DNA from: Stropharia rugosoannulata
Taxonomy: Eukaryota; Basidiomycota; Agaricomycetes; Agaricales; Strophariaceae
NCBI GenBank assembly: GCA_028532985.1
Contig: JANCIK010000007.1
Location: 1,612,001-1,676,000, forward strand
DNA length: 64,000 nucleotides
Direction: 5' to 3'
Each line of letters starts with the position of its first letter. Within the stretch, counting starts at the first letter, position 1. Below are positions 10,800 through 53,584 of this stretch, piece by piece. The notes under the pieces are model-generated. The model was not told the DNA's origin, made no database searches, and was given only the letters and a program-made list of their open reading frames with translations. The translations under genes were made by a program, and so were the position numbers.

Positions 10800-10830
10800 A
10801 AAATACCACCCTCCTGGGTGGTCGGAAACC

Positions 10831-10838: not shown

Positions 10839-10869
10839 TCAGCCAAAAGCATTGTCGCCATTAAGCACC

Positions 10870-11613
10870 ATGGACCCTGCAGCAGAAAGAATATTTCGCT
10901 TGCTCTGTTTTGCTCCAGGAAACCGAAGCCATGCATTCGTGGTACCAACGACCATGCATGAATTTGCGTTGTCCATCCGTCACCAACATGAAATCCTGTG
11001 CCTTGCCATCTACAAGGACATCCGCACCCGCAGTGTATGAGAACTGAACATAATCGACCATGTGCAAGTGGAAGCATATGTCCATGATCACCTTGATCAC
11101 ATGGTAAGCCCTCGAACCGTTTCACAGCTAGCCCTGCTAATGATAGCGCAGCGCTTATTGCTATGCTCTCACGTCAACATGCAGCCATCAAACGAGCATG
11201 AAATTGAGCGCATGATTCCGCCTGAATGCCGCTACCTAAGCGCAAGTGCCAGGCATTTACTGGAGATGTTTCCGATGGAGGATCACGAAGGGTTCGAGTA
11301 TTGGTCGACCATACTGCGGTTCATGGTGCTATATGCTGAGGACACCGCTGATGCAACCAAAGAAAACCAAGTCGACTTCAAAGAATTTAATGAACTGGAC
11401 AGCAACAGTCGGTGGTGGATACAGTTTTCAAACCGTGTCAAAGCCGAAGACCCCCTTGAAGAGCACCTGCCCGCATTCAGGCCAGCCGCAACACCTGAAG
11501 ACACATCGGATATCGAAGAAATCCCAGCGGCGATCTTTCATCTTCAAACAGCCGTGCCCTCCCAGCGTCCACATGCCAGATTCCGAACATCGGTGCAAGA
11601 GATGGATATATAA
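10870..11613 (+). pseudogene. Antisense gene A, interrupted copy
   Basis: The frame starts MDPAAERIF and corresponds codon for codon to the intact 247-residue gene A at 51790-52533. It is broken by a TGA at 11038-11040 (RSV-stop-ELN) where the other copy has CGA (Arg). Most other differences are Arg to His or Gln, again CpG-type transitions. The remainder is open to 11613. I recognise no domain; the predicted protein is charged and probably mainly helical. It lies antisense to the gag-pol transcript and next to the 3' LTR. Confidence 0.75.
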
Positions 11614-11651
11614 AGCGTAGAGCACTAGTAGATAGTTCCGTAGCACCCACA

Positions 11652-12140
11652 ATGCAAGCACCTTTGCGTCTATATCTTCAATCCTTAGTGCTTGAGTTGC
11701 CCACCGATCTAAACGATTTCCGATTGCGATTTCCGATCCCATATGTCTTCAAACATTGCCTTGATCCCTTTGTCGACGCCCTAGAATACGAATACACACG
11801 AATACTCCAGCTTGACACACCCAACCTGCAACCTGTCATAAACAATCTCCGGTCCTTCTTGTTCCTAGGACAGACCATAGCAGTACGCAGCTTCTTCAGA
11901 TGACGTGCTGCCCTAACACAAGCACAGTATATTGCATGGCATGGTTGTCAGCATGTAGCCATACATCGGTCGCCTGTCGAGCAAATCACCATGGTCGAAT
12001 TGAGGGTGTTAATGCGTATGCAATACATGACAATGGCATTTGGATACACCGGGCACGAGATTCCCGAAATCAAGGAGCACATGGACGACATTTTCTTCCA
12101 GTATCAACAGGCATGTGTGTGCAGAGTAGGCGACCCATAA
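11652..12140 (+). CDS. Antisense gene B, two exons, unknown function
   Basis: Exon 1 is 11652-11882 (77 codons), intron 11883-11927 (45 nt, GT..AG) and exon 2 11928-12140 (70 codons plus stop). Both exons are multiples of three, and splicing gives an uninterrupted 147-residue protein starting MQAPLRLYLQ and ending CVCRVGDP. The intact copy at 51263-51751 has the same structure and length. Here the donor is GTACGC instead of GTAAGT, so splicing may be weaker. No known domain was recognised. Retention of two open exons in two diverged copies argues that the gene is or was functional. It runs antisense to gag-pol, 38 bp after gene A. Confidence 0.7.
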
Positions 12141-12283
12141 CCAACAACCGGCGGTTGGAAATTAGCTAGATAATCTCCAGACAAGTGACATGTATCCATG
12201 TGTCCAGATCGTCCAATGCCAAGCAACCCAGCGCCTGAAATCCGCATAAAAGGAAAGGCAACTGGTCTGTCCAAACACCAGAA

Positions 12284-12355
12284 ATGAGCACCACCACTCG
12301 ATTCACTACATTATTGACCACAGCTGTGAAGAATCCAGCGGACATCATGCAGGTC
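12284..12355 (+). pseudogene. Antisense gene C, 5' stub
   Basis: The first 24 codons (start MSTTTRFTT) match gene C at 50931-51119. The gene is then cut by the 3.35 kb deletion, whose junction falls at 12349-12355; beyond it the sequence is pol read in reverse. Confidence 0.75.
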
Positions 12356-14836
12356 CTCAAGTACCACGTAAGATCATTACTGATGTTAGGCCACCAAAAA
12401 CGCTTCGTGAGCCTATTCCACACAGTGAAATAAGACTTATGTCCTAAGTTATCGTGTACTTCTTGAAGTATCCGAAGCCTATCTTCTTGTTGTACCACTT
12501 GTTTATGTTCACCATCATCGGACCTTTTCCATAGCTTTCCGTCCAGTATGAAGAATTGCCTTACTTTCTTGAGGAAGCGGTCGTACTCCTTTCTTGTGCA
12601 AATCCATACAGGTCTTTCAGGGTCGCCTAGAAATTCTTTGACCTTTTTTAATTCCTCATCCATGTCAGCCCCTCTGTCGGAAACCGGTAACTTAAGCATT
12701 GTAGTAATTTCTGCACGGTGAGGTATCGATTTAGCTGCAATAAGTACCATAGCCTTGTAAGACAATGACGATCCTGGTATTTTCTTCTGTACCATGGACA
12801 TGTGAGTGAATTTCCGATCGTCATTTTTGTTTAAGACCCAGATTCCGAAACCGCATGCCCTGTCGATCCAGTCTTCTACTTCTTCTTCGGAATTTTCTTG
12901 AGGATCTAATTCTGATCGTCTCCTTCTGGACAGACCGTCTGGTGAATGTGATTTTCCAGGGATGTGTTCTAGCTTGAAGTCAAACAAAAGTATGGCGGCT
13001 ATCCAGCGATTTATCGTAGCATTAGGTTGTATATCGGGGTTGTTTAACATTCCCTTGAGGTAACTCGCATCAGTCCTGACTATCAAGTTTTCCACTCCAA
13101 CCAGGTATATCCGATACGCTCTAAGGCTGCGAAATAGGCCATATAACTCGATCTTGGCTTGTGAGTATCTTGATTCTCTTTCGTTCCAAGTTATAGAACC
13201 AAACCGCGCAGGATGTTCCTTTCCGTCTTCTTTAACCTGAGATAAAATAAAACCCACGGCTATGTTGCTTGAGTCCACCTCCATTATTATCTGTCCTTCG
13301 GATTCATAGTCCAATGCCGTTAATGCTGGAGACTGAATTAAGAGACGCTTTAAACTGTCCATTGCTTCTTGTTCTCTTTGTCCCCATGTGAATTCAACGT
13401 CCTTCTTTGTTAGTTCAGTTAACGGTCTTGAATGCATTGCATAATCTTTAATAAAGATACGCATTACACCCAATGTTCCCAAGAATGAACGAACTTCTGT
13501 CAAGTTTTCACAAGGTTTCCAATCCCTGATAACTCTGACTTTTGACTCATCAACCGTCCTTCCTTGGATGCTGCACATATGGCCAACAACATTAATTCTT
13601 GGCACAGCCAAAAAGGATTTCGAGGCATTGAAGGTTCCTCCAGCATGCTGTATTCTTTGAATAATGCGATGTACATTGTTCAAGTGTTCCCAGACAAATC
13701 TTCTGATACCAGGGTTTTCGGAAATCGTTTCATAGACCCCATTCTCATCTTGATAATAAGATCGTGGTCCTTTGACCGGTACATCGTCCACAAAGGTGCC
13801 GTAAATTCAGGAATCTCAGGCTCCAAGATAAATGACACATCTCCCTGTTGTACTTGAACCGAATTTGTAAATCCTTGTGGTAGACGGGTCAATCTCAGGT
13901 TTCCGATAGGCGAAGAGAACGTAGTATAATCTCTTGAATCTTGATGAAGAACCCGATGGTCAAATCCTACGAACAAATCAAACATGGCATAGATAGTTCT
14001 TCCACCGAAAGATTCTGCATAAAGTTCTACAACTGGCGGTAGAGCAGAGTCTTTTATGGTCACTGCATTCAACCTTCTCAGGTCATGCACTACCCGTATT
14101 GCTCCACTTTTCTTTGGCACATATAGGATCCTGGACCGATAAGGTGAACTAGAAGGTTCATATACTTTGCTTGCGACTTTATCTTGAAAAATTCTCATGA
14201 CTTCTTTAGCGATGCCTGGAGGTATCGGTATCGGTTTTTCCGCCCATGGTTCATGCAGTACAACGGGTATCTTTAGTGGTTCAAAATAGTCTTCTCTGAA
14301 GGCACCTTTCTCCATCTCATTCCAGGCAAATCCCATCTCATGTTCTTTAATGATCCATTGAACTAGACGAGCTTCATCCGGTGTCAAGAAGCCATCTTCA
14401 TTTATGTTCCAGGCGTCCATTTGTTCTTTAGTATAGCGTATTCCTGGTTCAATATGGTCCACTTTAAAAGGTAACAGTTTCATATTAGCCAGAGGATCCG
14501 ATGGAATTCTTCTAATAACATGATATTCTTCGGGAAGCATAGTTGACACAGGAAATGTCCGTCTCGCCACAGGTTTATATTTTTTCCTGGCTTTTATTAT
14601 TAGTGCTCTTTGTTGAAAAGAGTAAGCATAAGTCTTCTGTAAACATTGGCCGATAAATCTGGCGAAACTTCAAAATTAAAATTAGTAGGGTATATTTCGT
14701 GGTATGATGATCCTCTTTCATCATCTATTCTTGCCGCAAATAAGGGAGTTATAAATCGTCCAAATGATAGTGCTGAAGGAATATCCTTCTCTTGCTGTTC
14801 ATGTCGTTTCTTGTGCACTATATTTAACATGAACAT
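12356..14836 (-). pseudogene. Ty3 pol: reverse transcriptase and RNase H, truncated
   Basis: Minus-strand frames 14600-14836, 13680-14570 and 12166-13791 together carry the linker, RT and RNase H of this family, with motifs such as YVPKKSGAIRVVHDLRRLN and LPQGFTNS. A one-base loss in the catalytic loop (plus-strand position ~13790) breaks the frame at the FVDD motif, so RT is inactive here. RNase H (MEVDSSNIAVGFI) and the H2C2 start remain; the integrase core is deleted. The frame also shifts near 14600, where the other copy is open. It is otherwise nearly identical to 45097-47694. Confidence 0.85.
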
Positions 14837-14879
14837 CTTTCCCGACCGTTTTAATTCAGTCGGGATTCTGGAAAATCCG

Positions 14880-15296
14880 CTAACTCTTTTTCGAAACCTT
14901 GTTCCTGGGCTGAGTTGGAATAGTAACCACCTTTTGCGTGTTGGGGCAAGTCAAAGTAATTTCCTGGTCGCCATTTGTATAATCCCTAGTAGTGCACCCA
15001 GTGTACACAAAGAACGGTCGTCCTATCAGAACTTGAAAAGGGGCTTTATCCACGACATGTACTTGAAAATAGAGTTCAAGGCTTCCAATAGTGATTTTAA
15101 GGTTTTCGCACATTCCATCTGTTTGTGATAATTCCGTGTTGGCAGACTCCATATATATTTTCCTTTCTGGGTTTATATTGTGGGACAGTTTTCTCCATAT
15201 GCGCTTGTCCATTGCCATGATTTCCGATCCTTGGTCCAAGACACATTCTGCCGTGAATTCACCGTTTAGCAACGCGGGTATCACCCTGAGTTTCAT
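14880..15296 (-). CDS. Ty3 aspartic protease region
   Basis: This is a retropepsin-like segment of 138 codons with the catalytic-type motif VLDQGSEIMAM near residue 20 and a second half ending VLIGRPFFVYTG. DQGS in place of the usual DTG/DSG is seen, to my knowledge, in other basidiomycete Ty3 elements. It is in a different frame from the gag ORF just upstream (15309), whereas in the other copy gag C-terminus and protease share one frame (44246-45196). A frameshift here or there is therefore likely. Role: maturation of the Gag-Pol polyprotein. Confidence 0.7.
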   Translation of the reverse strand: MKLRVIPALLNGEFTAECVLDQGSEIMAMDKRIWRKLSHNINPERKIYMESANTELSQTDGMCENLKITIGSLELYFQVHVVDKAPFQVLIGRPFFVYTGCTTRDYTNGDQEITLTCPNTQKVVTIPTQPRNKVSKKS

Positions 15297-15308
15297 AAGG
15301 AGAAGCCG

Positions 15309-16610
15309 TCAAAGGACTCTATCTGATGGCCCATTTTCTGAAGCAAATTGTAGCACATAAGACCCTTCATTTTCTTCGCCATGGACATAGCTAACCGTCG
15401 GAATTCTCTTTGGTGTAGTTGTTTCCTTGAAATATTTCCGAAGTTCTCCAGAAATAGCCAACAACTCTCTTTGAGAAATAGTAATTTCTGCATCCAAAGA
15501 TTTTGATATGACTTTCTTAAGAAGATCCAGATTTTCCGCTCCTGAGGTGAATCGGTACTGGGGTCCTTTAGCCAGTTCAAATCTTACATGTGCTTCTGGT
15601 ATTGTCTTTTCCGATTTCCTTTCGGCAATCACGACTTCAGGAACTTTTTCATAAGCAGATGAGTTTTTGCCTGGTCCAGGTTTGTCTTGGGGCGAAGACC
15701 TTGTCTTCAGATAAACCTCACCGATTTCTTCGTCGACTTCTTCGAGTTTACTGGAAGAATTAAACAAGGTTTCAGCCGTAGTACAGGAAAACATCATCGT
15801 GGTAGCTGGCGACAGGTGAGGGGGTACATCTCGAGCATGTTGCAGTTTGAGGATGTTTTCAATCCTTTCTTTTATTGTTCCAGTTCCATTGATCCAGTCG
15901 CTGTTAGCCATTGTGAATCTACCATTCGGTCCTTGTTTGATGATTCCCTTGTTTATAAATTCATCCGGCAAGTTGCAAGACCTCATAATATGATTAATGT
16001 CTCCGCAAAACAAGCAACCAGGGGCGTAGCGCGGAGTGGAATGATACATAGGTCTTTCTTGCGTCGGAAAAGATGTATTAGGTTGGCCTTGCATAAACAT
16101 CTTTATTGATCCTAATTCCGATGTCATTTTCCTTAGCATGAGCTCAAGAGCAGTTTCTTCGGTTTTCGTCCATTCACGAGGTGTGTCTTCAAGGCCATAC
16201 CTATCAGAATAAGCATTATCTTGAAGAACATATCGAGCTGCTCGATTAACTTGAAGATAATCATGAACCAGGCCCGGTTTCTGCTTCGGGTCTTCAGCCG
16301 TTAATTGAGTAAGAACCTTCGCCCTGAATTCTTTTGGAAGACCTAGAACATAGTTTCTGTTGATGTCGTCTCTTGATGATAATTGCTCCTTCTCCAGATA
16401 AGTAGCTATAATCATGAATTCACAATGATATTCTGCTAAAAGTTCTTGATTATCCATGGGTTTGCTCGAAAACTTCTGTATTAATTTATGCAGATCGTTG
16501 ACTGAGTATTTGTAGAGCGAATCCAACCCAGGGAAATATTCCAGTAATATTTGTTTATTCTCCTTCCAGGATTTGTTTTCATCTAGAATATTCTTCCATG
16601 TTTCGTGGTA
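15309..16610 (-). CDS. Ty3 gag with CCHC zinc knuckle
   Basis: The frame is open from just after a TGA at 16611-16613 to 15309; the longest ATG-initiated part is 405 codons (16526). It carries a CX2CX4HX4C knuckle (CLFCGDINHIMRSC, about residue 173 of that part), typical of nucleocapsid. Unlike the other copy it has no frameshift after HARDVP. The N-terminal part of gag lies before the TGA, which both copies share. Confidence 0.8.
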   Translation of the reverse strand, partial: YHETWKNILDENKSWKENKQILLEYFPGLDSLYKYSVNDLHKLIQKFSSKPMDNQELLAEYHCEFMIIATYLEKEQLSSRDDINRNYVLGLPKEFRAKVLTQLTAEDPKQKPGLVHDYLQVNRAARYVLQDNAYSDRYGLEDTPREWTKTEETALELMLRKMTSELGSIKMFMQGQPNTSFPTQERPMYHSTPRYAPGCLFCGDINHIMRSCNLPDEFINKGIIKQGPNGRFTMANSDWINGTGTIKERIENILKLQHARDVPPHLSPATTMMFSCTTAETLFNSSSKLEEVDEEIGEVYLKTRSSPQDKPGPGKNSSAYEKVPEVVIAERKSEKTIPEAHVRFELAKGPQYRFTSGAENLDLLKKVISKSLDAEITISQRELLAISGELRKYFKETTTPKRIPTVSYVHGEENEGSYVLQFASENGPSDRVL

Positions 16611-16829
16611 TCAGTAATCCACATACCACAGGGTTTTTGTAATCCGTGTGATATCCGATGTGTCTCCCCTGTCTTTGCATAATTCCTCGATGTCCTCTAG
16701 GTATCGATGTAAAGGAGTAGTGGGTCCTGTAAACAATGGAGCATCTTTTGAGTTGCGATTTGGGTAAGGTTTGACTTTGGGGGCCATGGTTTGAACTTCA
16801 AAAGGGTTTGCTTCAATTCCGTGATCCAT
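16611..16829 (-). pseudogene. Ty3 gag N-terminal segment ending in a TGA shared by both copies
   Basis: The segment from MDHGIEANPF to KTLWYVDY ends in TGA, and the same reading frame continues as YHETWKNIL in the main gag frame. The frame is open further upstream through a basic patch (KRRRKRP). The identical arrangement at 43215-43433 means that the stop was present in the common source copy. It could be an inherited nonsense mutation or a leaky stop. Confidence 0.6.
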
Positions 16830-16999
16830 TTCCGATATATGGCTGAGTACTGAAGATATTTGGCTTCCTGACAGTGTTGGTCTTTTCCTTCTTCTCTTGA
16901 TGGGCGCTTCAGGAGGTTGTAGGGGTATAGCAAATTCTGCAGCAAGTTGACGAGTTATCCGACAGTCTGGAACAGACGGATCTATTGTGAACTGTAGAC

Positions 17000-17019
17000 C
17001 CTTGCGGTGGGCTCCACAT
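17000..17019 (-). promoter_or_regulatory. Primer binding site next to the 5' LTR
   Basis: On the minus strand TGGAGCCCACCGCAAGG begins 2 nt after the LTR terminus, where a tRNA 3' end ending CCA would pair. The same sequence follows the 5' LTR of the other copy at 43027. I could not assign the tRNA. Confidence 0.6.
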
Positions 17020-17984
17020 TGTGAGGTGCGAAGTTGGGTAGGACTGGTCTGAAAAGCCTGTCTCTATAGTTCACAATGTGCAAAGGCAACGTGTGTACAA
17101 CGATAGCACGTTGAAAAGGTTTTACTTGTTTTAAAACAAGGAGCTTCCAGTGTACGAGGTTTAAACAAAGGTTTCCGATGCGAACTGGTATGATGTGTGT
17201 AGGTAGAATTTAACCCTGAAGGAAGCTGGGGAAGTACAGAGATATTCTACTCCTTAAATACCCGTCTGGTTGCCATGCCCAGATCGTTCCATATACATCC
17301 ATGAAGATCAGACCGCCCATGCAGTCTTTATCTCGTCGGAAACCATGCTGCACTACAGCATGCTTCATATCTTGGCCACAAATTTCCTTATCTTCGGAAA
17401 CCAAGCCCAAGCACAAGAAATCTTCCTGTGGCCGGATCATCTCCATGTCCACCCCTAAACATACATCTCCTCCAACCCTCTCTCCACACCTATGTCCCTT
17501 GTGTTTGTGTCGAGATTCTTCTGCTCTCTGCTACCACACGCCTGCATGTCGTCGGAAACCCTTGCATATCGTCGGAATCCGTCACCATTTTTGTCCCAGG
17601 TTGTATGTATGAGTATTTCCATGTGATTGACTCCCTTGTGGGTCCATAGTTACATCAGATTGTTAATATTGATCTGATGTTGTCGGCATCAGAAGTCCAA
17701 TATTGCTCTGATGCTGTTGTCTTTCTTGATCTGCCATTGAGTTGTAATAACATCTTGAGTCTTCCTTGTGCTTGTCTTCTTGTTTCATCATGTACATATT
17801 TCATATCTTCGAATAAACTTGCATCTTCATATCTCAGTCTTCATATTTCGTGCTTCTTCTTGTTCTTTCAGTTTCCGATAGTAGTTTCCGATCGTTATGG
17901 CGGATATGTTGCTTCTTGTGTATCTATGTTGTAAACCTTATGGTTATTCTTGTTTTCACGAGGGGCCAGCCCCAGCCCCTCACA
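17020..17984 (-). repeat. 5' LTR of the minus-strand Ty3 element
   Basis: 965 bp, matching 9819-10783 with no difference seen by eye, but differing by several percent from the LTRs of the full-length copy at 42060-53584. Confidence 0.92.
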
Positions 17985-32177: not shown

Positions 32178-32182
32178 CGGGA

Positions 32183-42059: not shown

Positions 42060-43024
42060 TGTGAGGGGCTGGGGCTGGCCCCTCGTGAAAACATGAAAAA
42101 CCATAAGGTTCAGAACATAGATACACAAGAAGCGACATATCCGCCATAACGATCGGAAACTACTATCGGAAACTGAAGGAACAAGAAGAAGCACGAAATA
42201 TGAAGTCTAAGATATGAAGATGCAAGTTTATTCGAAGATATGAAATATGTACATGATGAAACAAGAAGACAAGCACAAGGAAGACTCAAGATGTTATTAC
42301 AACTCAATGGCAGATCAAGAAAGATAACAGCATCAGAGCAATATTGGACTTCTGATGCCGACAACATCAGATCAATATTAACAATCTGATGTAACTATGG
42401 ACCCACAAGGGAGTCAATCACATGGAAATACTCGTACATACGACATGGGACAAATATGGCAACGGATTCCGACGATATGCAGGGGTTTCCGACGACATGC
42501 AAGCGTGTGGTAGCAGAAAGCAGAAGTATCTCGATACAAACACAAGGGACATAGGTGTGGAAAGAGGGTCGGAGGAGATGTGTGTTTAGGGGAGAACATG
42601 GAGTTGATCCGGTCGCAGGAAGATCTCTTGTGCTTGGGCTTGGTTTCCGAAGATAAGGATATTTGTGGCCAAGATATGAAGCATGCTGTAGTGCAGCATG
42701 GTTTCCGACGAGATAAAGTCAGCACGGGCGGTCGGATCTTCGTGGATGGATATGGTACGATCTGGGCATGGCAACCAGACGGGTATTTAAGGAGTAGAAT
42801 ATCTCTGTACTTCTCCAGCTTCCTTCAGGGTTAAATTCTACCTACACACACCATACCAGTTCACATCGGAAACCGTTGTTTAAACCTCGTATACTGGAAG
42901 CTCCTTGTTTTAAAACAAGTAAAACCTTTTCAACGTGCTATCGTTGTACACACGTTGCCTTCGCACATTGTGAACTTTAGAGACAGGCTTTTCAGACCAG
43001 TCCAACCCAACTTCGCACCTCACA
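42060..43024 (+). repeat. 5' LTR
   Basis: 965 bp, TGTGAGGGGC...GCACCTCACA, with a TATTTAAGG box near 42784. Six exact TCGGAAA/TTTCCGA heptamers lie near 42153, 42166, 42486, 42643, 42702 and 42865. Confidence 0.93.
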
Positions 43025-43433: not shown

Positions 43434-44249
43434 TACCACGAAACATGGAAGAATATTCTAGATGAAAACAAATCCTGGAAGGAGAATAAACAAATATTAC
43501 TGGAATATTTCCCTGGGTTGGATTCGCTCTACAAATACTCAGTCAACGATCTGCATAAATTAATACAGAAGTTTTCGAGCAAACCCATGGATAATCAAGA
43601 ACTTTTAGCAGAATATCATTGTGAATTCATGATTATAGCTACTTATCTGGAGAAGGAGCAATTATCATCAAGAGACGACATCAACAGAAACTATGTTCTA
43701 GGTCTTCCAAAAGAATTCAGGGCGAAGGTTCTTACTCAATTAACGGCTGAAGACCCGAAGCAGAAACCGGGCCTGGTTCATGATTATCTTCAAGTTAATC
43801 GAGCAGCTCGATATGTTCTTCAAGATAATGCTTATTCTGATAGGTATGGCCTTGAAGACACACCTCGTGAACGGACGAAAACCGAAGAAACTGCTCTTGA
43901 GCTCATGCTAAGGAAAATGACATCGGAATTAGGATCAATAAAGATGTTTATGCAAGGCCAACCTAATACATCTTTTCCGACGCAAGAAAGACCTATGTAT
44001 CATTCCACTCCGCGCTACGCCCCTGGTTGCTTGTTTTGCGGAGACATTAATCATATTATGAGGTCTTGCAACTTGCCGGATGAATTTATAAACAAGGGAA
44101 TCATCAAACAAGGACCGAATGGTAGATTCACAATGGCTAACAGCGACTGGATCAATGGAACTGGAACAATAAAAGAAAGGATTGAAAACATCCTCAAACT
44201 GCAACATGCTCGAGATGTACCCCTCACCTGTCGCCAGCTACCACGATGA
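43434..44249 (+). CDS. Ty3 gag main segment with CCHC knuckle
   Basis: Capsid-like region followed by CLFCGDINHIMRSC. It ends early, after HARDVP, through a one-base loss in a C run (TACCCCTC here, TACCCCCTC in the other copy). The rest of gag continues in the overlapping frame from 44246. Confidence 0.8.
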   Translation, partial: YHETWKNILDENKSWKENKQILLEYFPGLDSLYKYSVNDLHKLIQKFSSKPMDNQELLAEYHCEFMIIATYLEKEQLSSRDDINRNYVLGLPKEFRAKVLTQLTAEDPKQKPGLVHDYLQVNRAARYVLQDNAYSDRYGLEDTPRERTKTEETALELMLRKMTSELGSIKMFMQGQPNTSFPTQERPMYHSTPRYAPGCLFCGDINHIMRSCNLPDEFINKGIIKQGPNGRFTMANSDWINGTGTIKERIENILKLQHARDVPLTCRQLPR

Positions 44250-45196
44250 TGTTTTCCTGTACTACGGCTGAAACCTTGTTTAATTCTTCCAGTAAACTCG
44301 AAGAAGTCGACGAAGAAATCGGTGAGGTTTATCTGAAGACAAGGTCTTCGCCCCAAGACAAACCTGGACCAGGCAAAAACTCATCTGCTTATGAAAAAGT
44401 TCCTGAAGTCGTGATTGCCGAAAGGAAATCGGAAAAGACAATACCAGAAGCACATGTAAGATTTGAACTGGCTAAAGGACCCCAGTACCGATTCACCTCA
44501 GGAGCGGAAAATCTGGATCTTCTTAAGAAAGTCATATCAAAATCTTTGGATGCAGAAATTACTATTTCTCAAAGAGAGTTGTTGGCTATTTCTGGAGAAC
44601 TTCGGAAATATTTCAAGGAAACAACTACACCAAAGAGAATTCCGACGGTTAGCTATGTCCATGGCGAAGAAAATGAAGGGTCTTATGTGCTACAATTTGC
44701 TTCAGAAAATGGGCCATCAGATAGAGTCCTTTTGACGGCTTCTCCCCTTATGAAACTCAGGGTGATACCCGCGTTGCTAAACGGTGAATTCACGGCGGAA
44801 TGTGTCTTGGACCAAGGATCGGAAATCATGGCAATGGACAAGCGCATATGGAGAAAACTGTCCCACAATATAAACCCAGAAAGGAAAATATATATGGAGT
44901 CTGCCAACACGGAATTATCACAAACAGATGGAATGTGCGAAAACCTTAAAATCACTATTGGAAGCCTTGAACTCTATTTTCAAGTACATGTCGTGGATAA
45001 AGCCCCTTTTCAAGTTCTGATAGGACGACCGTTCTTTGTGTACACTGGGTGCACTACTAGGGATTATACAAATGGCGACCAGGAAATTACTTTGACTTGC
45101 CCCAACACGCAAAAGGTGGTTACTATTCCAACTCAGCCCAGGAACAAGGTTTCCGAAAAAGAGTTAGCGGATTTTCCAGAATCCCGACTGAATTAA
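44246..45196 (+). CDS. Ty3 gag C-terminus and aspartic protease
   Basis: 316 codons: an acidic/charged gag tail, then the retropepsin-like domain with VLDQGSEIMAM (about residue 189) and VLIGRPFFVYTG. Here gag tail and protease share one frame, unlike the other copy, which has a break after SDRVL. It overlaps the start of the RT frame by about 100 bp. Confidence 0.75.
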   Translation: MMFSCTTAETLFNSSSKLEEVDEEIGEVYLKTRSSPQDKPGPGKNSSAYEKVPEVVIAERKSEKTIPEAHVRFELAKGPQYRFTSGAENLDLLKKVISKSLDAEITISQRELLAISGELRKYFKETTTPKRIPTVSYVHGEENEGSYVLQFASENGPSDRVLLTASPLMKLRVIPALLNGEFTAECVLDQGSEIMAMDKRIWRKLSHNINPERKIYMESANTELSQTDGMCENLKITIGSLELYFQVHVVDKAPFQVLIGRPFFVYTGCTTRDYTNGDQEITLTCPNTQKVVTIPTQPRNKVSEKELADFPESRLN

Positions 45197-47652
45197 AACG
45201 GTCGGGAAAGATGTTCATGTTAAATATAGTGCACAAGAAACGACATGAACAGCAAGAGAAGGATATTCCTTCAGCACTATCATTTGGACGATTTATAACT
45301 CCCTTATTTGCGGCAAGAATAGATGATGAAAGAGGATCATCATACCACGAAATATACCCTACTAATTTTAATTTTGAAGTTTCGGCCAGATTTATCGGCC
45401 AATGTTTACAGAAGACTTATGCTTACTCTTTTCAACAAAGAGCACTAATAATAAAAGCCAGGAAAAAATATAAACCTGTGGCGAGACGGACATTTCCTGT
45501 GTCAACTATGCTTCCCGAAGAATATCATGTTATTAGAAGAATTCCATCGGATCCTCTGGCTAATATGAAACTGTTACCTTTTAAAGTGGACCATATTGAA
45601 CCAGGAATACGCTATACTAAAGAACAAATGGACGCCTGGAACATAAATGAAGATGGCTTCTTGACACCGGATGAAGCTCGTCTAGTTCAATGGATCATTA
45701 AAGAACATGAGATGGGATTTGCCTGGAATGAGATGGAGAAAGGTGCCTTCAGAGAAGACTATTTTGAACCACTAAAGATACCCGTTGTACTGCATGAACC
45801 ATGGGCGGAAAAACCGATACCGATACCTCCAGGCATCGCTAAAGAAGTCATGAGAATTTTTCAAGATAAAGTCGCAAGCAAAGTATATGAACCTTCTAGT
45901 TCACCTTATCGGTCCAGGATCCTATATGTGCCAAAGAAAAGTGGAGCAATACGGGTAGTGCATGACCTGAGAAGGTTGAATGCAGTGACCATAAAAGACT
46001 CTGCTCTACCGCCAGTTGTAGAACTTTATGCAGAATCTTTCGGTGGAAGAACTATCTATGCCATGTTTGATTTGTTCGTAGGATTTGACCATCGGGTTCT
46101 TCATCAAGATTCAAGAGATTATACTACGTTCTCTTCGCCTATCGGAAACCTGAGATTGACCCGTCTACCACAAGGATTTACAAATTCGGTTCAAGTACAA
46201 CAGGGAGATGTGTCATTTATCTTGGAGCCTGAGATTCCTGAATTTACGGCACCTTTTGTGGACGATGTACCGGTCAAAGGACCACGATCTTATTATCAAG
46301 ATGAGAATGGGGTCTATGAAACGATTTCCGAAAACCCTGGTATCAGAAGATTTGTCTGGGAACACTTGAACAATGTACATCGCATTATTCAAAGAATACA
46401 GCATGCTGGAGGAACCTTCAATGCCTCGAAATCCTTTTTGGCTGTGCCAAGAATTAATGTTGTTGGCCATATGTGCAGCATCCAAGGAAGGACGGTTGAT
46501 GAGTCAAAAGTCAGAGTTATCAGGGATTGGAAACCTTGTGAAAACTTGACAGAAGTTCGTTCATTCTTGGGAACATTGGGTGTAATGCGTATCTTTATTA
46601 AAGATTATGCAATGCATTCAAGACCGTTAACTGAACTAACAAAGAAGGACGTTGAATTCACATGGGGACAAAGAGAACAAGAAGCAATGGACAGTTTAAA
46701 GCGTCTCTTAATTCAGTCTCCAGCATTAACGGCATTGGACTATGAATCCGAAGGACAGATAATAATGGAGGTGGACTCAAGCAACATAGCCGTGGGTTTT
46801 ATTTTATCTCAGGTTAAAGAAGACGGAAAGGAACATCCTGCGCGGTTTGGTTCTATAACTTGGAACGAAAGAGAATCAAGATACTCACAAGCCAAGATCG
46901 AGTTATATGGCCTATTTCGCAGCCTTAGAGCGTATCGGATATACCTGGTTGGAGTGGAAAACTTGATAGTCAGGACTGATGCGAGTTACCTCAAGGGAAT
47001 GTTAAACAACCCCGATATACAACCTAATGCTACGATAAATCGCTGGATAGCCGCCATACTTTTGTTTGACTTCAAGCTAGAACACGTCCCTGGAAAATCA
47101 CATTCACCAGACGGTCTGTCAAGAAGGAGACGATCAGAATTAGATCCTCAAGAAGATTCCGAAGAAGAAGTAGAAGACTGGATCGACAGGGCATGCGGCT
47201 TCGGAATCTGGGTCTTAAACAAAAATGACGATCGGAAATTCACTCACATGTCCATGGTACAGAAGAAAATACCAGGATCGTCATTGTCTTACAAGGCTAT
47301 GGTACTTATTGCAGCTAAATCGGTACCTCACCGTTCGGAAATTACTACAACGCTTAAGTTACCGGTTTCCGACAGAGGGGCTGACATGGATGAGGAATTA
47401 AAGAAGGTCAAAGAATTTCTAGGCGACCCCGAAAGACCCGCATGGATTCGCACAAGAAAGGAGTATGACCGCTTCCTCAAGAAAGTAAGGCAATTCTTCA
47501 TACTGGACGGAAAGCTATGGAAAAGGTCCGATGATGGTGAACATAAACAAGTGGTACAACAAGAAGATAGGCTTCGGATACTTCAAGAAGTACATGATAA
47601 CTTAGGACATAAGTCTTATTTCACTGTGTGGAATAGGCACACTAAGAGTTAA
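45097..47652 (+). CDS. Ty3 pol: reverse transcriptase and RNase H
   Basis: 851 codons. RT motifs: YVPKKSGAIRVVHDLRRLNA, MFDLFVGFDHR (first catalytic Asp), LPQGFTNS and FVDDVPVKG (about residue 388, second and third Asp). RNase H: MEVDSSNIAVGFIL (about 555) and VRTDASYLKGML. Then an H...H zinc-binding start (HDNLGHKS). The frame ends in TAA (RHTKS-stop-WRPN) where the other copy reads RLTKRFWWPN, so pol is interrupted just before the integrase CxxC. The N-terminal ~40 codons overlap protease in another frame, and the true frame begins near TELKRSGK. Confidence 0.85.
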   Translation: MPQHAKGGYYSNSAQEQGFRKRVSGFSRIPTELKRSGKMFMLNIVHKKRHEQQEKDIPSALSFGRFITPLFAARIDDERGSSYHEIYPTNFNFEVSARFIGQCLQKTYAYSFQQRALIIKARKKYKPVARRTFPVSTMLPEEYHVIRRIPSDPLANMKLLPFKVDHIEPGIRYTKEQMDAWNINEDGFLTPDEARLVQWIIKEHEMGFAWNEMEKGAFREDYFEPLKIPVVLHEPWAEKPIPIPPGIAKEVMRIFQDKVASKVYEPSSSPYRSRILYVPKKSGAIRVVHDLRRLNAVTIKDSALPPVVELYAESFGGRTIYAMFDLFVGFDHRVLHQDSRDYTTFSSPIGNLRLTRLPQGFTNSVQVQQGDVSFILEPEIPEFTAPFVDDVPVKGPRSYYQDENGVYETISENPGIRRFVWEHLNNVHRIIQRIQHAGGTFNASKSFLAVPRINVVGHMCSIQGRTVDESKVRVIRDWKPCENLTEVRSFLGTLGVMRIFIKDYAMHSRPLTELTKKDVEFTWGQREQEAMDSLKRLLIQSPALTALDYESEGQIIMEVDSSNIAVGFILSQVKEDGKEHPARFGSITWNERESRYSQAKIELYGLFRSLRAYRIYLVGVENLIVRTDASYLKGMLNNPDIQPNATINRWIAAILLFDFKLEHVPGKSHSPDGLSRRRRSELDPQEDSEEEVEDWIDRACGFGIWVLNKNDDRKFTHMSMVQKKIPGSSLSYKAMVLIAAKSVPHRSEITTTLKLPVSDRGADMDEELKKVKEFLGDPERPAWIRTRKEYDRFLKKVRQFFILDGKLWKRSDDGEHKQVVQQEDRLRILQEVHDNLGHKSYFTVWNRHTKS

Positions 47653-48303
47653 TGGAGGCCTAACATCAGTAATGATCTTACGTGGTACTTGAAGACCTGC
47701 GATATATGTCAGCGACAGTCTAGGGTAAAGAACCTCATTCCGCCAACGGTAGCTCGTCCATTGTCGCTTTTTGTCAAGGTTCACGCGGATACTTTCTTTA
47801 TGCCCAAAGGAAAAGGGGGAAAACATCTCTGTCTTCATCTACGATGTTCACTTTCGGGAATGCCTGAAGCTCTGGCTGTAGCGTCGGAAAATCATACGGT
47901 TATAGGAGAATTTCTGTTGGATGTTATGTCGCGATGGGGAGCTATGGCTATTATCGTGACAGACAATGGTACACCTTGGGTTAAAGCCGTGAACTACTTG
48001 GCGGAAAAATATGGAATCTACCACATCAGAATTTCGGGATATAATTCGCAGGCAAACGGCTTGATTGAAAAACGACATCTCGATGTTAGGGAAGCAATAG
48101 TCAAGACTTGTGAAGGCGACTTATCAATATGGCCATTAATTCTCCGATTTGTTTTATGGGCTGAACGTGTTACGGTACAAAAATCAACAGGTTATACTCC
48201 CTACTATATCGCACACGGAGTGGAACCATTATTTCCATTTGACATTACAGAAGCGACTTTCATGTTTCCCGATCAAGTTGATATGATTTCGAAGAAGAGC
48301 TAA
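47653..48303 (+). pseudogene. Ty3 integrase core
   Basis: After the TAA the same frame continues with CDICQRQ (second half of the HHCC zinc motif). The core carries the DDE-type triad: VHADTFF, VTDNGTPW and ANGLIEKRH. It ends at 48301-48303 because of a one-base shift; the frame EEELIARRAIM continues it. Catalytic residues are all present. It is absent from the deletion derivative at 9819-17984. Confidence 0.8.
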
Positions 48304-48746
48304 TAGCACGAAGAGCTATAATGCTGCAGAAGCGACCGGAAGATCTTGAAAGGGTCAAGGACAAAGTGGAGCAAGCACGGCTGAGGCAAGCTCGTTATTT
48401 TGAGCAATACAATAAGCATCGCATCGTGTTACAGGATTTCGCACCAGGTACTTTGGTCCTAGTCAGAAATTCACCAGTTGAAAAATCACTTGATCGGAAA
48501 ACAAAACCGCGATACTTTGGGCCTCTAATGGTGTTACGACGAACGAAAGGGGGGTCTTACATCTGCGCTGAACTCAGTGGAGCCGTATCCTACAAGAGAT
48601 TCGCCGCATATCGCCTAATACCTTATATATCAAGAGAACCGCTTGAAATACCATGGGAACTATTGTCTCAACCCAAGGATCTAATTGAAGGCATGGTACG
48701 CGAAGAGGTACCTGAGGACTCGCAAGTGGCGCCTGATGATGAATAA
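48304..48746 (+). pseudogene. Ty3 integrase C-terminus
   Basis: Basic, coiled region (RPEDLERVKDKVEQARLRQ) and a GPLMVLRRTKGGSYICAEL module typical of Ty3 integrase tails (GPxxV/GPY-like). It ends at 48746. No chromodomain was recognised. Gag-pol coding stops here; the next 3.9 kb to the LTR have no sense-strand gene. Confidence 0.75.
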
Positions 48747-49005
48747 CAAGTTTCCGACAACGCTTACACAACCTATATTTCTTAATGGAGCTTCAACAGT
48801 TTCAAGTTCATTTCTTCTCATTTGTTAAATAAACTCTTTTTCTTTTAGGTTATGTTTCTGTTTTTACAAGATTATGAAATTATTGCTTTCAAACTAAAAT
48901 GTGCATGACCAAGACAATTTATTGACTACAAGATACTATGACAATATGGTTTCCGGCGAAGGGCGAAAGGAAATACGACAAGAAGAAATACATATAAATC
49001 CTTTT
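48747..49005. other. Region between the convergent ends of pol and antisense gene D
   Basis: A/T-rich, with AATAAA-like words on both strands (AAATAAAC near 48828). It could hold 3' ends of both transcripts. No coding content. Confidence 0.35.
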
Positions 49006-50001
49006 TTACCTCCTGCGGAATCTTTTTACTTCCCCGGACATTCTACGGATCTCCTCGATACGCTCCATTGATAATTCCACCAGATCGCGAAGCCGATTTT
49101 CCATGTCAGAATAATGTCGCAGGTTTCTTTCGCAAAGGTCGTCCAGCTCTTCAAGCCCATCTGTTGGGTTGGCAGTCGTTTGCCATTCGCGGAAATCTCG
49201 CACCAACTGTGTATATGGTGCATACGAGGGTAAACCCTCAACAGGACCGCTAGAACTTGCGTTGGGACTAGAACGCGTAATACCTGTGCAACGAGGTTAC
49301 CGAAACCTGTTAAAGATAGGGAATTGTAATTACTCACCTGAAGTTCCCTCGCCAACATCTTTTTGCTTTGCGACGATGGACTCCGTGTACTCGAAAACAG
49401 GCGTTGCCTCATAGTATGGAAGAGGGCCATCATCCTCAATTCGCATAGGGCTCGAAGGCGCGTTGTAGGGGGCTACTGCATTGGCCGTGTCGTCTGCTTC
49501 AAGTTCGTCCACTTCTTCGACCTCGTTGTCCTGGCTGCTGTCGCTGTCGCCGTCGCTATCTTCTTCGGGCTCTGGGTGGACGGTACGGGACCGTCGGTCG
49601 TATGAGAAGTCGCTGCCAGCTAAGGCACGAGTCAGGAAGTCGCCCGGGTGTTGTTTCTAAATTACGGATGAAGTTATCAGCATGAAAGCGACAGAATACA
49701 ATTAACAGACACTTACACATTCGGCAGTATTATTGCTGCAATTCTTTTTGTCAACCTTGCAATTGGTACATGCCCTGCTCCAGCGAGGTGTGTAGCGCAA
49801 AGTACACATATAGCCGGGGTGACTTTGGCACCAAGAACACCGCTAGGTCAATGCTTTAGTATGGCTGTAACTCAGTATGGCATATTTACTCACCTGGTCG
49901 TACTCATACCACCCTTCTGCAAGTCCAAGAATTTGTGGAGCGGACCAGCGCATATCGACTTCATACGTAGAGGCGGGACGAGCGGTGCGACGAGGAGGCA
50001 T
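49006..50001 (-). CDS. Antisense gene D: spliced, Cys-rich zinc-finger-like protein
   Basis: ATG at 50001. Exons: 49894-50001, 49717-49842, 49338-49656 and 49006-49283. Introns are 51, 60 and 54 nt with GTGAGT or GTAAGT donors and CTAG, TTAG or ACAG acceptors. Splicing gives one open frame of 276 residues. Exon 2 is exactly 42 codons and encodes seven Cys (pattern CxxC, x7 C, x11 CxxC, x6 C, x6 C), including ACTNCKVDKKNC, which recalls fungal binuclear zinc clusters. Exon 3 is acidic (EPEEDSDGDSDSS). Exon 4 has a helical, probably coiled-coil end (LRDLVELSMERIEEI). It may be a DNA-binding regulator; that is inference. Absent from the deletion copy. Confidence 0.75.
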
Positions 50002-50608
50002 GTCTTAAGCAGGTGATGAATGTGGGGGGGGAAGAATGGTGAAAGTATGAGTGGAATGGGCAGGCTTTTTATATTCTTCTGGGACAGTGGTTCAGCACGC
50101 TTTCGGAAATCGGCTAGCTTTGAATGGGTCCGGCATCAGGCGTGGATGGCACTATGAAGAAACCGATAGAATGCTGTGGATTCTTCTCTATGACTCGGTC
50201 CTATATGTTGGACAATTGGCCTGCCTTTACTGGAACCGCGATAACTTCGACGCGAATCTTGTTCGGATTTTCTATTTTTAGGTCGGAAATCACCGTGGCT
50301 CATGTTCTGGAAAGCGGCGTTGCCTAATCAAGTATGACGGCGTGATGGCGTCGGGTTTATGGTGACGTGCCGTGCTGCTTTAGGGAATGGCGATACCTCT
50401 TTTGTCTGGTTGTTGCTGCGGCATTGCTCTGGGCCGCGCGAATTTTCAACTGGCGTTTTCGGCTGTAATGGCGCATGTGTAAGCTGGGCGGCTTGTTCAG
50501 TTTTACTGCATCTTCCATTTTCATTCGGCATTTTTCGCATCGTATGGCAGTGTCAAATTTGTGTGCGGAAATCTATCATAAGGAGTTTACATCTATGGGC
50601 AGTTGTAT
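50002..50608. other. Intergenic region between antisense genes D and C
   Basis: About 600 bp with several TCGGAAA-type words (for example near 50103 and 50282). On the minus strand this would hold the promoter of D and the 3' end of C. Plus-strand frames here (50051-50281, 50359-50670) have no supporting features. Confidence 0.4.
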
Positions 50609-51119
50609 CTACGGCTGATTGGCTTGTTTCTCAATCCAGTCCCTCCATCTCTCTACTCCATCTATGGTGAAGTCAGTTTCGCACAAGTAGCAGTGGCGGA
50701 AACCTTGCGACTGCTTCTCAGCTGCTTTGAGTAGGCTCAATGCCTTATCCTGCTCGCTGTCTACAAGAACGGCCCCGTATTCGCTCATGACCCGGCGAAG
50801 CAAGAGTAGTGTCCACGATGACTGGGGTCGGAATTGTTTCGTGGATATATAATCTTCGAAATGGTCATTCTGTGCAGAATAGGGATTGTCAATTGGGTTT
50901 GATTTCAACGGGACAAGTGGGTCAACTTACAATGTAATGGCACAGGGCGGCAAGTGTCCGATGTGTTTCCATCGCGTCTGTTGCGGAACGAGATAGCATT
51001 TGATCGGATATCAATTGGTCTATGGTAGGCCGAATGGCATGCTCTAGGACCTGCATGATGTCCGCTGGATTCTTCACAGCTGTGGTCAATAATGTGGTGA
51101 ATCGCGTGGCGGTGCTCAT
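50609..51119 (-). CDS. Antisense gene C, two exons, unknown function
   Basis: Exon 1 is 50931-51119 (63 codons), intron 50870-50930 (61 nt, GTAAGT..CACAG) and exon 2 50609-50869 (86 codons plus stop). Phase 0 splicing gives 149 residues with no internal stop. The protein begins MSTATRFTTLL, is mostly helical by eye, and has a CYLCETDF pair of Cys near the C-terminus. No known family was recognised. The first 24 codons survive in the copy at 12284-12355. Confidence 0.7.
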
Positions 51120-51262
51120 TTCTGGTGTTTGGGCAGACTAGTTGCCTTCCCTTTTATACAGATTTCAGGCGCTGGGCTACTTGGCATTGGACGATCTGGA
51201 CGCATGGATACATGTCACTTGTCTGGAGATTATCTAGCTAATTTCCGACAGCCGGTTGTTGG

Positions 51263-51751
51263 TTATGGGTCGCCTACTCCGCACACACATGCCTGTTGAT
51301 ACTGGAAGAAAACGTCGTCCATGCGCTCCTTGATTTCGGGAATCTCGTGCCCGGTGTATCCAAATGTCATCGTCATGTATCGCATACGCATTAACACCCT
51401 CAATTCGGCCATGGTGATTTGCTCGTTGGGCGATTGATGTATGCCTACATGTTGACGACCATGCCATGCTATATACTATGATAGTGTTAGGGCGGCACGT
51501 CCCCTGAAGACGTTACTTACTGCTATGGTTTGTCCTAGGAACAAGAAGGACCGGAGATCGGTTATGACAGGCTGCAAGTTGATGGTGTCAAGCTGGAGTA
51601 TTCGTGTGTATTCATATTCTAGGGCTTCGACGAATGGATCAAGGCAATGTTTGAAGACATATGGGATCGGAAATCGCGATCGGAAATCGTTTAGATCGGT
51701 GGGCAACTCAAGCACTAAAGATTGAAGATATAGACGTAAAGGCGCTTGCAT
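51263..51751 (-). CDS. Antisense gene B, two exons, unknown function
   Basis: Exon 1 is 51521-51751 (77 codons), intron 51476-51520 (45 nt, GTAAGT..ATAG) and exon 2 51263-51475 (70 codons plus stop), giving 147 residues. Starts MQAPLRLYLQ, with an aromatic/helical core (FKHCLDPFVEALEYEYTRIL) and the end ACVCGVGDP. The second copy (11652-12140, plus) keeps exon lengths, intron length and frame, with mostly conservative changes. That supports real splicing and past selection. Function unknown. Confidence 0.75.
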
Positions 51752-51789
51752 TGCGGGTGCTACGGAATAATCTACTAGAGCTCTACACT

Positions 51790-52533
51790 TTATATATCCA
51801 TCTCTCGCACCGATGTTCGGAATCTAGCATGTGGACGCTGGGAGGGAACGGCCGTTTGAAGATGAAAGATCGCCGCTGGAATTTCTTCGATGTCTGATGT
51901 GTCTTCAGGTGTTGCGGCTGGCCTGAATGCTGGCAGGTGTTCTTCAAGGGGGTCTTCGGCTTTGACGCGGTTTGAAAACTGTAACCACCACCGACTGTTG
52001 CTGTCCAGGTCATTAAATTCTTTGAAGTCGACTTGGTTTTCTTTGGTGGCATCGGCAGTGTCCTCAGCATATAGCGCCATGAACCGCAGTATGGTCGACC
52101 AATACTCAAACCCTTCATGTTCCTCCATCGGAAACATCTCCAGTAAATGCCTGGCACTGGCGCTTAGGTAGCGGCATTCAGGTGGAATCATACGCTCGAT
52201 TTCACGCTCATTTGACGGCCGCATGTTGACGCGCGAGCATAGCAATAAACGCTGCGCTATCATTAGCAGGGCTAGTTGTGAAGCGGTTCGAGGGCTTACC
52301 ATGTGATCAAAATGATCATGAACGTACGCTTCCACTTGCGCATGGTCGATTATGTTCAGTTCTCGTACGCTGCGAGTGCGGATGTCCTTGTAGATGGCGA
52401 GGCATAGGATTTCATGTTGGTGACGGATGGTCAACGCAAATTCACGCATGGTTGTTGGTACAACGAATGCATGGCTTCGGTTTCCTGGAGCAAAACAGAG
52501 CGAGCGAAATATTCTTTCTGCTGCGGGGTCCAT
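51790..52533 (-). CDS. Antisense gene A, unknown function
   Basis: A single open frame of 247 residues from ATG 52533 (MDPAAERIFRSL). The longer open frame upstream runs into the LTR and is unlikely to be used, given the TATA-like box at 52565-52572. The protein is charged, rich in Arg/Glu, probably helical, with an acidic C-terminal third (TPEDTSDIEEIPA). It ends 38 bp before gene B. The copy at 10870-11613 matches it except for a TGA and a set of CpG-type changes. No domain was recognised. Confidence 0.75.
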   Translation of the reverse strand: MDPAAERIFRSLCFAPGNRSHAFVVPTTMREFALTIRHQHEILCLAIYKDIRTRSVRELNIIDHAQVEAYVHDHFDHMVSPRTASQLALLMIAQRLLLCSRVNMRPSNEREIERMIPPECRYLSASARHLLEMFPMEEHEGFEYWSTILRFMALYAEDTADATKENQVDFKEFNDLDSNSRWWLQFSNRVKAEDPLEEHLPAFRPAATPEDTSDIEEIPAAIFHLQTAVPSQRPHARFRTSVREMDI

Positions 52534-52564
52534 GGTGCTTGATGGCGACGACGCTTTTGGCTGA

Positions 52565-52572
52565 AATTTATA
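52565..52572 (-). promoter_or_regulatory. TATA-like box of antisense gene A
   Basis: TATAAATT on the minus strand, about 32 bp before the ATG and inside the internal region; a TTTCCGA heptamer lies next to it (52576-52582). The same layout occurs in the other copy. Confidence 0.45.
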
Positions 52573-52603
52573 GGTTTCCGACCACCCAGGAGGGTGGTGT
52601 TTT

Positions 52604-52619
52604 AAAAGTTGGGGGGAGA
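52604..52619 (+). promoter_or_regulatory. Polypurine tract
   Basis: AAAAGTTGGGGGGAGA directly before the 3' LTR; identical in the other copy. Confidence 0.88.
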
Positions 52620-53584
52620 TGTGAGGGGCTGGGGCTGGCCCCTCGTGAAAACATGAAAAACCATAAGGTTCAGAACATAGATACACAAGAAGCGACATAT
52701 CCGCCATAACGATCGGAAACTACTATCGGAAACTGAAGGAACAAGAAGAAGCACGAAATATGAAGTCTAAGATATGAAGATGCAAGTTTATTCGAAGATA
52801 TGAAATATGTACATGATGAAACAAGAAGACAAGCACAAGGAAGACTCAAGATGTTATTACAACTCAATGGCAGATCAAGAAAGATAACAGCATCAGAGCA
52901 ATATTGGACTTCTGATGCCGACAACATCAGATCAATATTAACAATCTGATGTAACTATGGACCCACAAGGGAGTCAATCACATGGAAATACTCGTACATA
53001 CGACATGGGACAAATATGGCAACGGATTCCGACGATATGCAGGGGTTTCCGACGACATGCAAGCGTGTGGTAGCAGAAAGCAGAAGTATCTCGATACAAA
53101 CACAAGGGACATAGGTGTGGAAAGAGGGTCGGAGGAGATGTGTGTTTAGGGGAGAACATGGAGTTGATCCGGTCGCAGGAAGATCTCTTGTGCTTGGGCT
53201 TGGTTTCCGAAGATAAGGATATTTGTGGCCAAGATATGAAGCATGCTGTAGTGCAGCATGGTTTCCGACGAGATAAAGTCAGCACGGGCGGTCGGATCTT
53301 CGTGGATGGATATGGTACGATCTGGGCATGGCAACCAGACGGGTATTTAAGGAGTAGAATATCTCTGTACTTCTCCAGCTTCCTTCAGGGTTAAATTCTA
53401 CCTACACACACCATACCAGTTCACATCGGAAACCGTTGTTTAAACCTCGTATACTGGAAGCTCCTTGTTTTAAAACAAGTAAAACCTTTTCAACGTGCTA
53501 TCGTTGTACACACGTTGCCTTCGCACATTGTGAACTTTAGAGACAGGCTTTTCAGACCAGTCCAACCCAACTTCGCACCTCACA
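52620..53584 (+). repeat. 3' LTR
   Basis: 965 bp; no difference from 42060-43024 seen by eye. Confidence 0.93.

Follow-up and report, generated by a model that had tools for sequence, protein, structure and literature searches.

In long terminal repeat (LTR) retrotransposons, antisense genes are known, although their function is not (PMC7264820). In plants, the antisense open reading frames of the class aORF-3R (Grande gene23, RIRE2, Retand TRP28) lie between pol and the 3′ LTR in most copies and go with a long pol–LTR region, of 2,933–6,566 bp in Retand (PMC11963269); gene23 of Grande has a promoter of its own, and its product is a nuclear protein (PMC7264820). In the fungal Ty3/Gypsy element Boty, an antisense gene, brtn, occupies the same slot (PMC7264820, PMC8365987). 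The antisense gene HBZ of human T-cell leukemia virus type 1 (HTLV-1) also encodes a nuclear protein (PMC11963269). Here we describe a Ty3/Gypsy element of the basidiomycete Stropharia rugosoannulata, at positions 42060-53584 of a 64,000-nucleotide stretch (the window; assembly GCA_028532985.1, contig JANCIK010000007.1, host site C7:1612001-1676000), with a cassette of four genes, A to D, running against gag-pol between the end of pol and the 3′ LTR. There is little doubt that all four are protein genes on the antisense strand, that selection acts on them and that three are spliced.

Position, orientation and presence in most copies would place the cassette in the class aORF-3R, and the long pol–LTR region is a further likeness. 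Unlike the plant members, the cassette comprises four genes with five introns, each gene has a TATA box, and a dispersed motif is specific to the family; none of A–D has a Pfam match to PF04195, the domain of Retand TRP28. In Boty one gene is named, against four in the cassette; Boty-like elements of Botrytis cinerea with brtn are said to have been described by Zhao et al. in 2011. HBZ is spliced and is a bZIP protein; the cassette has four genes, not one, and none of A–D matches Pfam bZIP. In the main text of the Retand paper (PMC11963269), "intron" has no match and "splic" has two. The first-pass annotation of this DNA knew of no spliced four-gene antisense set in a fungal Ty3 element. No multi-gene spliced antisense set with a cognate motif in a Ty3 element was found in the open-access literature either, PMC5408684 and PMC10398659 and the papers cited here included (subscription papers and preprints lie mostly outside it); an antisense gene as such is not new in a fungal Ty3 element, Boty brtn being known.

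The antisense genes and their copies

The genome (47.97 Mb, 20 contigs) was searched by scoring the best first-look candidates only. Gene A gives 34 rows, fragments included, at about 27 places, and 27 of the 34 rows are without internal stop; gene C gives 55 rows and gene D 99 rows of exon pieces. Within the window, a second copy had been noted at 10784-12355 as keeping A, B and the 5′ end of C in the same order, which fits the deleted copy of Table 1 (about 32 codons of C are kept, followed by a deletion into the integrase region); the scale, though, is that of some 27 genomic places and not of two copies. Twenty-seven loci were fetched. They include the window copy itself (L010), an internally deleted copy (L017) and two loci, L031 and L035, that look like parts of one split copy. 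With these four and L011 left out, the alignment holds 23 copies, the window copy and 22 further loci, and in all 22 the pol end, the cassette and the LTR align in the same place with the same gene order.

Five introns are predicted in B, C and D. With the positions fixed by the window copy through the alignment alone, GT…AG ends are found in 115 of 115 introns (5 in each of the 23 copies), and in the window copy an in-frame stop is met in each of the five if it is left unspliced. The C intron, of 61 nt, is the only window intron that is not a multiple of three, and there the phase of the variable positions shifts as splicing demands. Among intact copies the interiors of the three D introns have mean pairwise differences of 0.28, 0.23, and 0.24, and their lengths vary by 1–2 nt with the subfamily (50/51/52, 59/60/61, and 52/53/54 nt). 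Minus-strand introns would offer no splice sites on the sense genomic RNA and would, consequently, survive each reverse transcription.

Splicing was also modelled copy by copy in 28 sequences (the 27 loci and the deleted window copy) with a procedure that favors open solutions at a loose threshold; it calls intact 20 A, 23 B, 21 C, and 19 D. Removal of genes with altered ends (A in L017, L022, and L028; B in L030; D in L034) leaves 17 A, 22 B, 21 C, and 18 D of the 28 sequences, the window copy included. The broken copies have frameshifts, internal stops and, in one case, a lost start codon of A.

TATAAA occurs exactly four times in the minus strand of the cassette (3.9 kb), once per gene (Table 1); the looser TATAWA occurs seven times on the minus and four times on the plus strand. 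In fungi a TATA box is not an obligatory part of the core promoter. A box 5′ of every gene suggests four separate transcription units.

The ratio of nonsynonymous to synonymous differences (pN/pS), calculated for A–D only and possibly biased slightly by the restriction to intact copies, is 0.134 for A, 0.232 for B, 0.258 for C, and 0.239 for D when pooled over all pairs, with a maximum of 0.78 among pairs with at least 5 synonymous differences. Variable columns (at least 2 of the 23 copies differ, unfiltered) are distributed over codon positions 1/2/3 as 19/13/69 in A, 14/11/31 in B, 23/7/29 in C, and 101/73/201 in D. The third-position excess has χ2 p values of 6e-13, 2e-3, 1.4e-3, and 2e-16, respectively, which serve as a guide only because the copies share descent. 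Codon positions 1 and 2 are constrained in A–D, as they are in pol. Mean diversity is, however, slightly higher in A–C (0.034–0.056) and far higher in D (0.12–0.22) than in pol (0.026–0.043).

These data bear on three other explanations. Open frames and splice sites arisen by chance would account for the lack of Pfam matches in A–D, the sole point for them, and are refuted, to our minds practically beyond appeal, by the 115 conserved intron ends and the codon-position signal. In another explanation antisense transcription is itself the function: minus-strand RNA would pair with genomic RNA into double-stranded RNA and act on copy number, the proteins being secondary. Such a role is proposed for antisense additional frames generally (PMC7264820), but it needs neither protein-level constraint in four genes nor splicing that keeps the frame, and we hold it to be improbable here. 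Lastly, a host gene cluster may have been captured once and carried passively, as the eukaryotic structure of A–D, with introns and TATA boxes, would allow. We rate this as very improbable: among the best candidates, the rows for A, C, and D all fall in copies of the family; A and D have no relatives in the protein collection, and selection is ongoing.

Much of this had been anticipated in the first-pass annotation. The four minus-strand genes stand where it put them and with the lengths it gave (Table 1), the five introns of 45–61 nt with standard ends do open the frames, and its argument that intron retention needs antisense genes is sound, minus-strand introns not being introns of the plus-strand genomic RNA. 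It had looked to purifying selection across many copies and to further antisense sets between pol and LTR, and this genome has both; host genes in sense, captured once, are not seen among the best-scoring candidates of this genome.

No Pfam family matches A–D at its cut-off. In 5.8 billion proteins, A and D find nothing at E ≤ 1 (174 and 1085 word-sharing candidates), and pol finds at least 1848 relatives at E ≤ 1e-10 in the same collection (best 7996 candidates scored). There is no match in viral contigs for A, D, or pol, nor in prokaryote genome contigs for the pol relative P0001. A PDB sequence search with D gives nothing credible (best E 0.18). Compared by hhalign, A–D and the antisense protein of a related element (below) show no mutual relation (best probability 3.9%). 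An AlphaFold model of A from 15 sequences, 89–99% identical, is all-helical with a mean predicted local distance difference test score of 39 and was not used.

Table 1. The element, its antisense genes and the second family copy, in window positions
Feature	Position	Strand	Remarks and basis
Second family copy, deleted, inverted	9819..17984	-	A (one TGA) at 10870-11610, intact B, first part of C, all +
5′ LTR	42060..43024	+	965 bp, TGTGA...TCACA; no difference from 3′ LTR
gag region	43434..44246	+	CCHC-like stretch CLFCGDINHIMRSC; open reading frame list, label by eye
pol: reverse transcriptase, RNase H, integrase, pol end	45064..48746	+	Pfam, mainly RNase H
Gene D, 276 aa	49006..50001	-	Introns 49893-49843, 49716-49657, 49337-49284 (51, 60, 54 nt); predicted splicing, alignment
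TATAAA of D	50068..50073	-	72 nt 5′ of D start codon; 23/23 copies
Gene C, 149 aa	50609..51119	-	Intron 50930-50870 (61 nt); predicted splicing, alignment
TATAAA of C	51153..51158	-	39 nt 5′ of C start codon; 20/23 copies
Gene B, 147 aa	51263..51751	-	Intron 51520-51476 (45 nt); predicted splicing, alignment
Second TCGGAAA pair	51667-51686		Same 13-bp spacing, B exon 1; motif scan
TATAAA of B	51789..51794	-	In TATATAAAG, 43 nt 5′ of B start, overlaps A stop; TATAAA 22/23, TATATAA 23/23 copies
Gene A, 247 aa	51790..52533	-	No intron; open reading frame, alignment of copies
TATAAA of A	52567..52572	-	39 nt 5′ of A start codon, TCGGAAACC directly upstream; 23/23 copies
3′ LTR	52620..53584	+	6 TCGGAAA sites; polypurine ttggggggaga immediately 5′ of LTR
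TCGGAAA pair in LTR	52713..52732	+	Starts 13 bp apart; among the 33 sites, as an example

Gene D and the word TCGGAAA

The protein D has the cysteine pattern C38-x2-C-x7-C-x11-C-x2-C-x6-C-x6-C78, an acidic middle and a basic C-terminal tail. Its eight cysteines (38, 41, 49, 61, 64, 71, 78, and 235) are all invariant over five subfamily types; invariant positions number 81 in the first 100 residues, 18 in the middle 100, and 47 in the last 76. In its six cysteines in two CX2C..C halves, D resembles a Zn2Cys6 cluster, with x7 and not x6 as spacing in the first half. Fungal Zn2Cys6 proteins prefer CGG targets. The likeness to those regulators lies in the CX2C...CX2CX6C pairs, in the basic residues and in a candidate word that holds CGG.

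That word, TCGGAAA, ranks first among the 7-mers of the element, with 33 occurrences on both strands (20+/13-) against 2.1 expected from dinucleotides. In gag-pol coding sequence it occurs 12 times against 1.54 in synonymous-codon shuffles, none of 2000 reaching 12, and its sites there fall in all three frames and on both strands; in the coding sequence of A–D there are 3 against 0.35 (6 of 2000 reach 3). The shorter CGGAAA occurs at 3.1–6.2 per kb in the element and at 0.44 per kb in the 34.3 kb of window outside the family; in the 22 other copies the part compared has 517 in 142 kb (3.6 per kb), the flanks 1.3 per kb.

Conservation of the sites was expressed as the mean share of the 22 other copies that are identical, with CpG 7-mers and all 7-mers as controls. 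In the cassette (n = 8) it is 0.903 against 0.573 and 0.643, respectively, and in the LTR (n = 6) 0.886 against 0.654 and 0.788: conservation beyond the controls is clear in the cassette and moderate in the LTR. One site, at 52575, lies directly 5′ of the TATA box of A and another, at 50103, 30 nt upstream of that of D; in the LTR, a candidate TATA TATTTAAGGA at 53344 has TCGGAAA motifs upstream. In a genome search the paired motif (Table 1) is matched 131 times and its reversed control 26 times, and among 100 matches listed 76 have the 13-bp start spacing and 56 lie in A-bearing copies; the excess lends weak support because these are mostly pairs inherited by descent. Between C and D, non-coding sequence at 50160-50340 varies by about 0.015–0.04, less than its surroundings (0.05–0.1), and contains a TCGGAAA at 50283 that is present in 22 of 22 other copies.

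VANDALs are DNA transposons. In Arabidopsis, VANDAL21 encodes an anti-silencing protein, VANC21, matched to a short motif, YAGTATTAY, that is enriched within the family but rare among other transposable elements; the VANDAL motif is described as mainly non-coding, often in tandem repeats and in one orientation (PMC5735166). TCGGAAA, too, is short, enriched in the family that carries it and scarce in related families (below). It differs in that coding sequence contains it as well and that it occurs in either orientation, and a role in anti-silencing would here be an analogy.

The explanation that we propose makes the cassette an integral accessory module of this Ty3 family. Each antisense gene would have its own core promoter and give a separate minus-strand mRNA, three of them spliced. 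D would, most likely, be a nuclear Zn2Cys6-like DNA-binding protein recognising TCGGAAA as a CGG-type word, which the element would have accumulated across its LTRs, cassette, and coding regions. Binding of D would mark the element's own copies, so that transcription of LTR and cassette is turned on or silencing is kept off, and A, B, and C, for which homology gives no guide, may be accessory partners of D. Guidance of integration is another conceivable effect of the binding. For the whole of this reading, an accessory antisense module with D binding the element's own motif in the service of transcription or silencing resistance, we see an even chance; binding of TCGGAAA by D, taken by itself, could go either way.

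Several points weigh against it. Against the Pfam zinc cluster Zn_clus (PF00172), D scores 7.8 bits (E 4.8) with a cut-off at 21 and is not accepted. The second spacing is x6 in the usual Zn2Cys6 pattern and x7 in D. In pol (n = 5), site conservation is 0.818 against 0.748 for CpG 7-mers and 0.804 for all, so that an effect beyond the controls is hardly seen. The only link of TCGGAAA to D, rather than to a host factor or to A–C, is the cysteine pattern together with the CGG in the word.

With the genes real and selected, TCGGAAA could be the site of a host transcription factor and D act otherwise, with Gag, in an integration complex or on chromatin. The failed zinc-cluster test would be explained, and the candidate TATA of the LTR with its upstream motifs fits an ordinary host-driven promoter. 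A host factor hardly explains, on the other hand, why TCGGAAA is found throughout gag-pol coding sequence, or why groups with long slots have different CGG words and two compact families none (below). We consider this explanation rather unlikely.

Some 20 copies of the family are intact, the introns fix the coding strand, each gene has a TATA box, one gene is swapped between lineages, and there is a dispersed candidate target word. With these features, a function in self-recognition, through a DNA-binding protein of the element's own, becomes open to direct test. The cassette also suggests that a retroelement can carry a spliced module of several genes, provided that the module runs antisense to its genomic RNA.

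Portions of D are exchanged between lineages: copies that are near-identical elsewhere differ by 35–37% in D exons 3-4. Loci L032 and L033 are 0.000 apart in A and in the compared LTR part, 1.5% in pol, and 37% in D exons 3-4. Similarly, L014 differs from the window copy by at most 2% in A, B, and C and by 35% in D exons 3-4, and its exons 3-4 match those of L026 at 3.4%. Such exchange would be explained most simply by template switching.

Other Ty3 families of the genome

Searches with pol give related families at about 62, 54, 52, and 50-51% identity. The length of the slot was taken as the gap from the pol-end domain, which we take to be of GPY type, to the 3′ LTR (67 of 150 rows, entered by hand); it covers L038 of the 54% family as well as the 52% family and the 50% family, with L037, L039, and L041's own class outside. 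The gap is about 3.94 kb in the cassette family (window copy); in the 54% family, 6 of 8 copies have 334–338 bp. In the 52% family (9 copies), five have 6.21–6.38 kb, one 7.1 kb, and three are without LTR found. In the 50/51% group an LTR was found for 10 of 50, with a gap of 6.02–6.14 kb in six and 5.4–8.5 kb in four. The missing LTRs of these two groups mean little, because only part of the candidates was scored (the best 40 of 325 for 50/51% and 40 of 58 for 52%).

Words were compared from the LTR to the reverse transcriptase, with one or two loci per family (L037 enters without LTR, and L039 with an LTR whose position is a guess). The leading words are CAGCGGA in L042 (39 occurrences, corrected p 4e-42) and in L041 (19, 8e-14), ATACCGG (11, 5e-7) and AAGCGGG (9, 3e-4) in L040, and TCGGAAA in the cassette family (14, 2e-8); in L036, L037, L038, and L039 no word in this region falls below p = 0.1. 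TCGGAAA itself occurs 14 times in the cassette family and 0–2 times in seven loci of other families. Two family groups with slots of about 6 kb have other CGG words, and the two compact families examined are without any. ATATAGA in L039 (9 against 0.8 in a whole-locus scan) was set aside as not outstanding over this region.

Several Ty3 families of this fungus might each have a private control, a long antisense cassette encoding a family-specific CGG-reading protein and a matching scattered word (TCGGAAA, CAGCGGA, or ATACCGG/AAGCGGG). Such families would be a retrotransposon counterpart of VANC anti-silencing, with spliced antisense genes exchanged between lineages by recombination. We hold this to be less likely than not; the other slots of about 6 kb were compared by length. 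The distribution of the words also weighs against the explanation proposed above for the cassette: 16 of 19 CAGCGGA of the 51% locus L041 are inside the LTR, as are 8 of 11 ATACCGG of the 52% locus L040 (four in 26-bp steps), and CAGCGGA in L042 is strongly one-stranded (32+/7-). AAGCGGG in L040 is mostly internal (7 of 9).

In the 62% element on C12 (L043; the region is nearly the same in L036), the stretch between pol and LTR contains an antisense frame (195 aa, one predicted intron of 49 nt), the LTR start being placed by eye at about L043:1023. Only L043 and L036 match this frame, and L036 has three single-base gaps in it. The protein has no relation to A–D and the element no enriched word; it is, at best, a weaker second case. 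In one 52% element, the 430 bases adjoining the 3′ LTR are without a clear antisense gene. In C12:319000-335500 (L036 and L043), a stretch made up of the 62% element's end and some of its flank is present in two copies, >99% identical and within about 11 kb of each other, like a duplication. Pieces of LTR of the 50/51% type lie in the window at 30979-32176 and 63442-64000, with about 93.5% identity to L041. As a candidate slot gene, the fungal kinase gene of the window (Pkinase_fungal, 26964-28728, minus strand) was rejected, with only one 91% copy (C14) and one distant match.

The element and its surroundings

With its LTRs, and an RNase H followed by an integrase zinc-binding stretch in one pol, the element is, as judged from sequence, a Ty3/Gypsy LTR retrotransposon. 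In pol, RT_RNaseH_2 (8e-19) and RT_RNaseH (6e-18) are above the Pfam cut-off, and RVT_1 (2.6e-5) and Integrase_H2C2 (0.11 and 0.0025, flanking a stop on either side) are below it. In the window copy, pol is interrupted by a stop codon at 47650-47652 and, near 48282-48303, by a change of frame. A Pfam search of the gag region gives no gag match. Among the 120 pol relatives listed, of which the closest stands at 87%, many have PF17919, PF17917, and PF17921 and some also PF00078 and PF00665; those named are from mushroom-forming fungi (Leucocoprinus, Pleurotus djamor, Candolleomyces, Rhodofomes), in line with an agaricomycete host.

The element is flanked by tcgtt and tcgtc, and a 5-bp target duplication would, therefore, be imperfect (4 of 5). 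A LINE-type (long interspersed nuclear element) open frame of 1289 aa, labelled by eye, lies at 53473-57339 on the minus strand and enters the 3′ LTR; the element, it seems, lies close to the 3′ end of a LINE. Part of the LINE has a 96% copy, inverted, at 32177-34893. At 5129-8007, the window also contains a large palindrome, with arms of 1434 nt that are 99% complementary and 11 nt apart.

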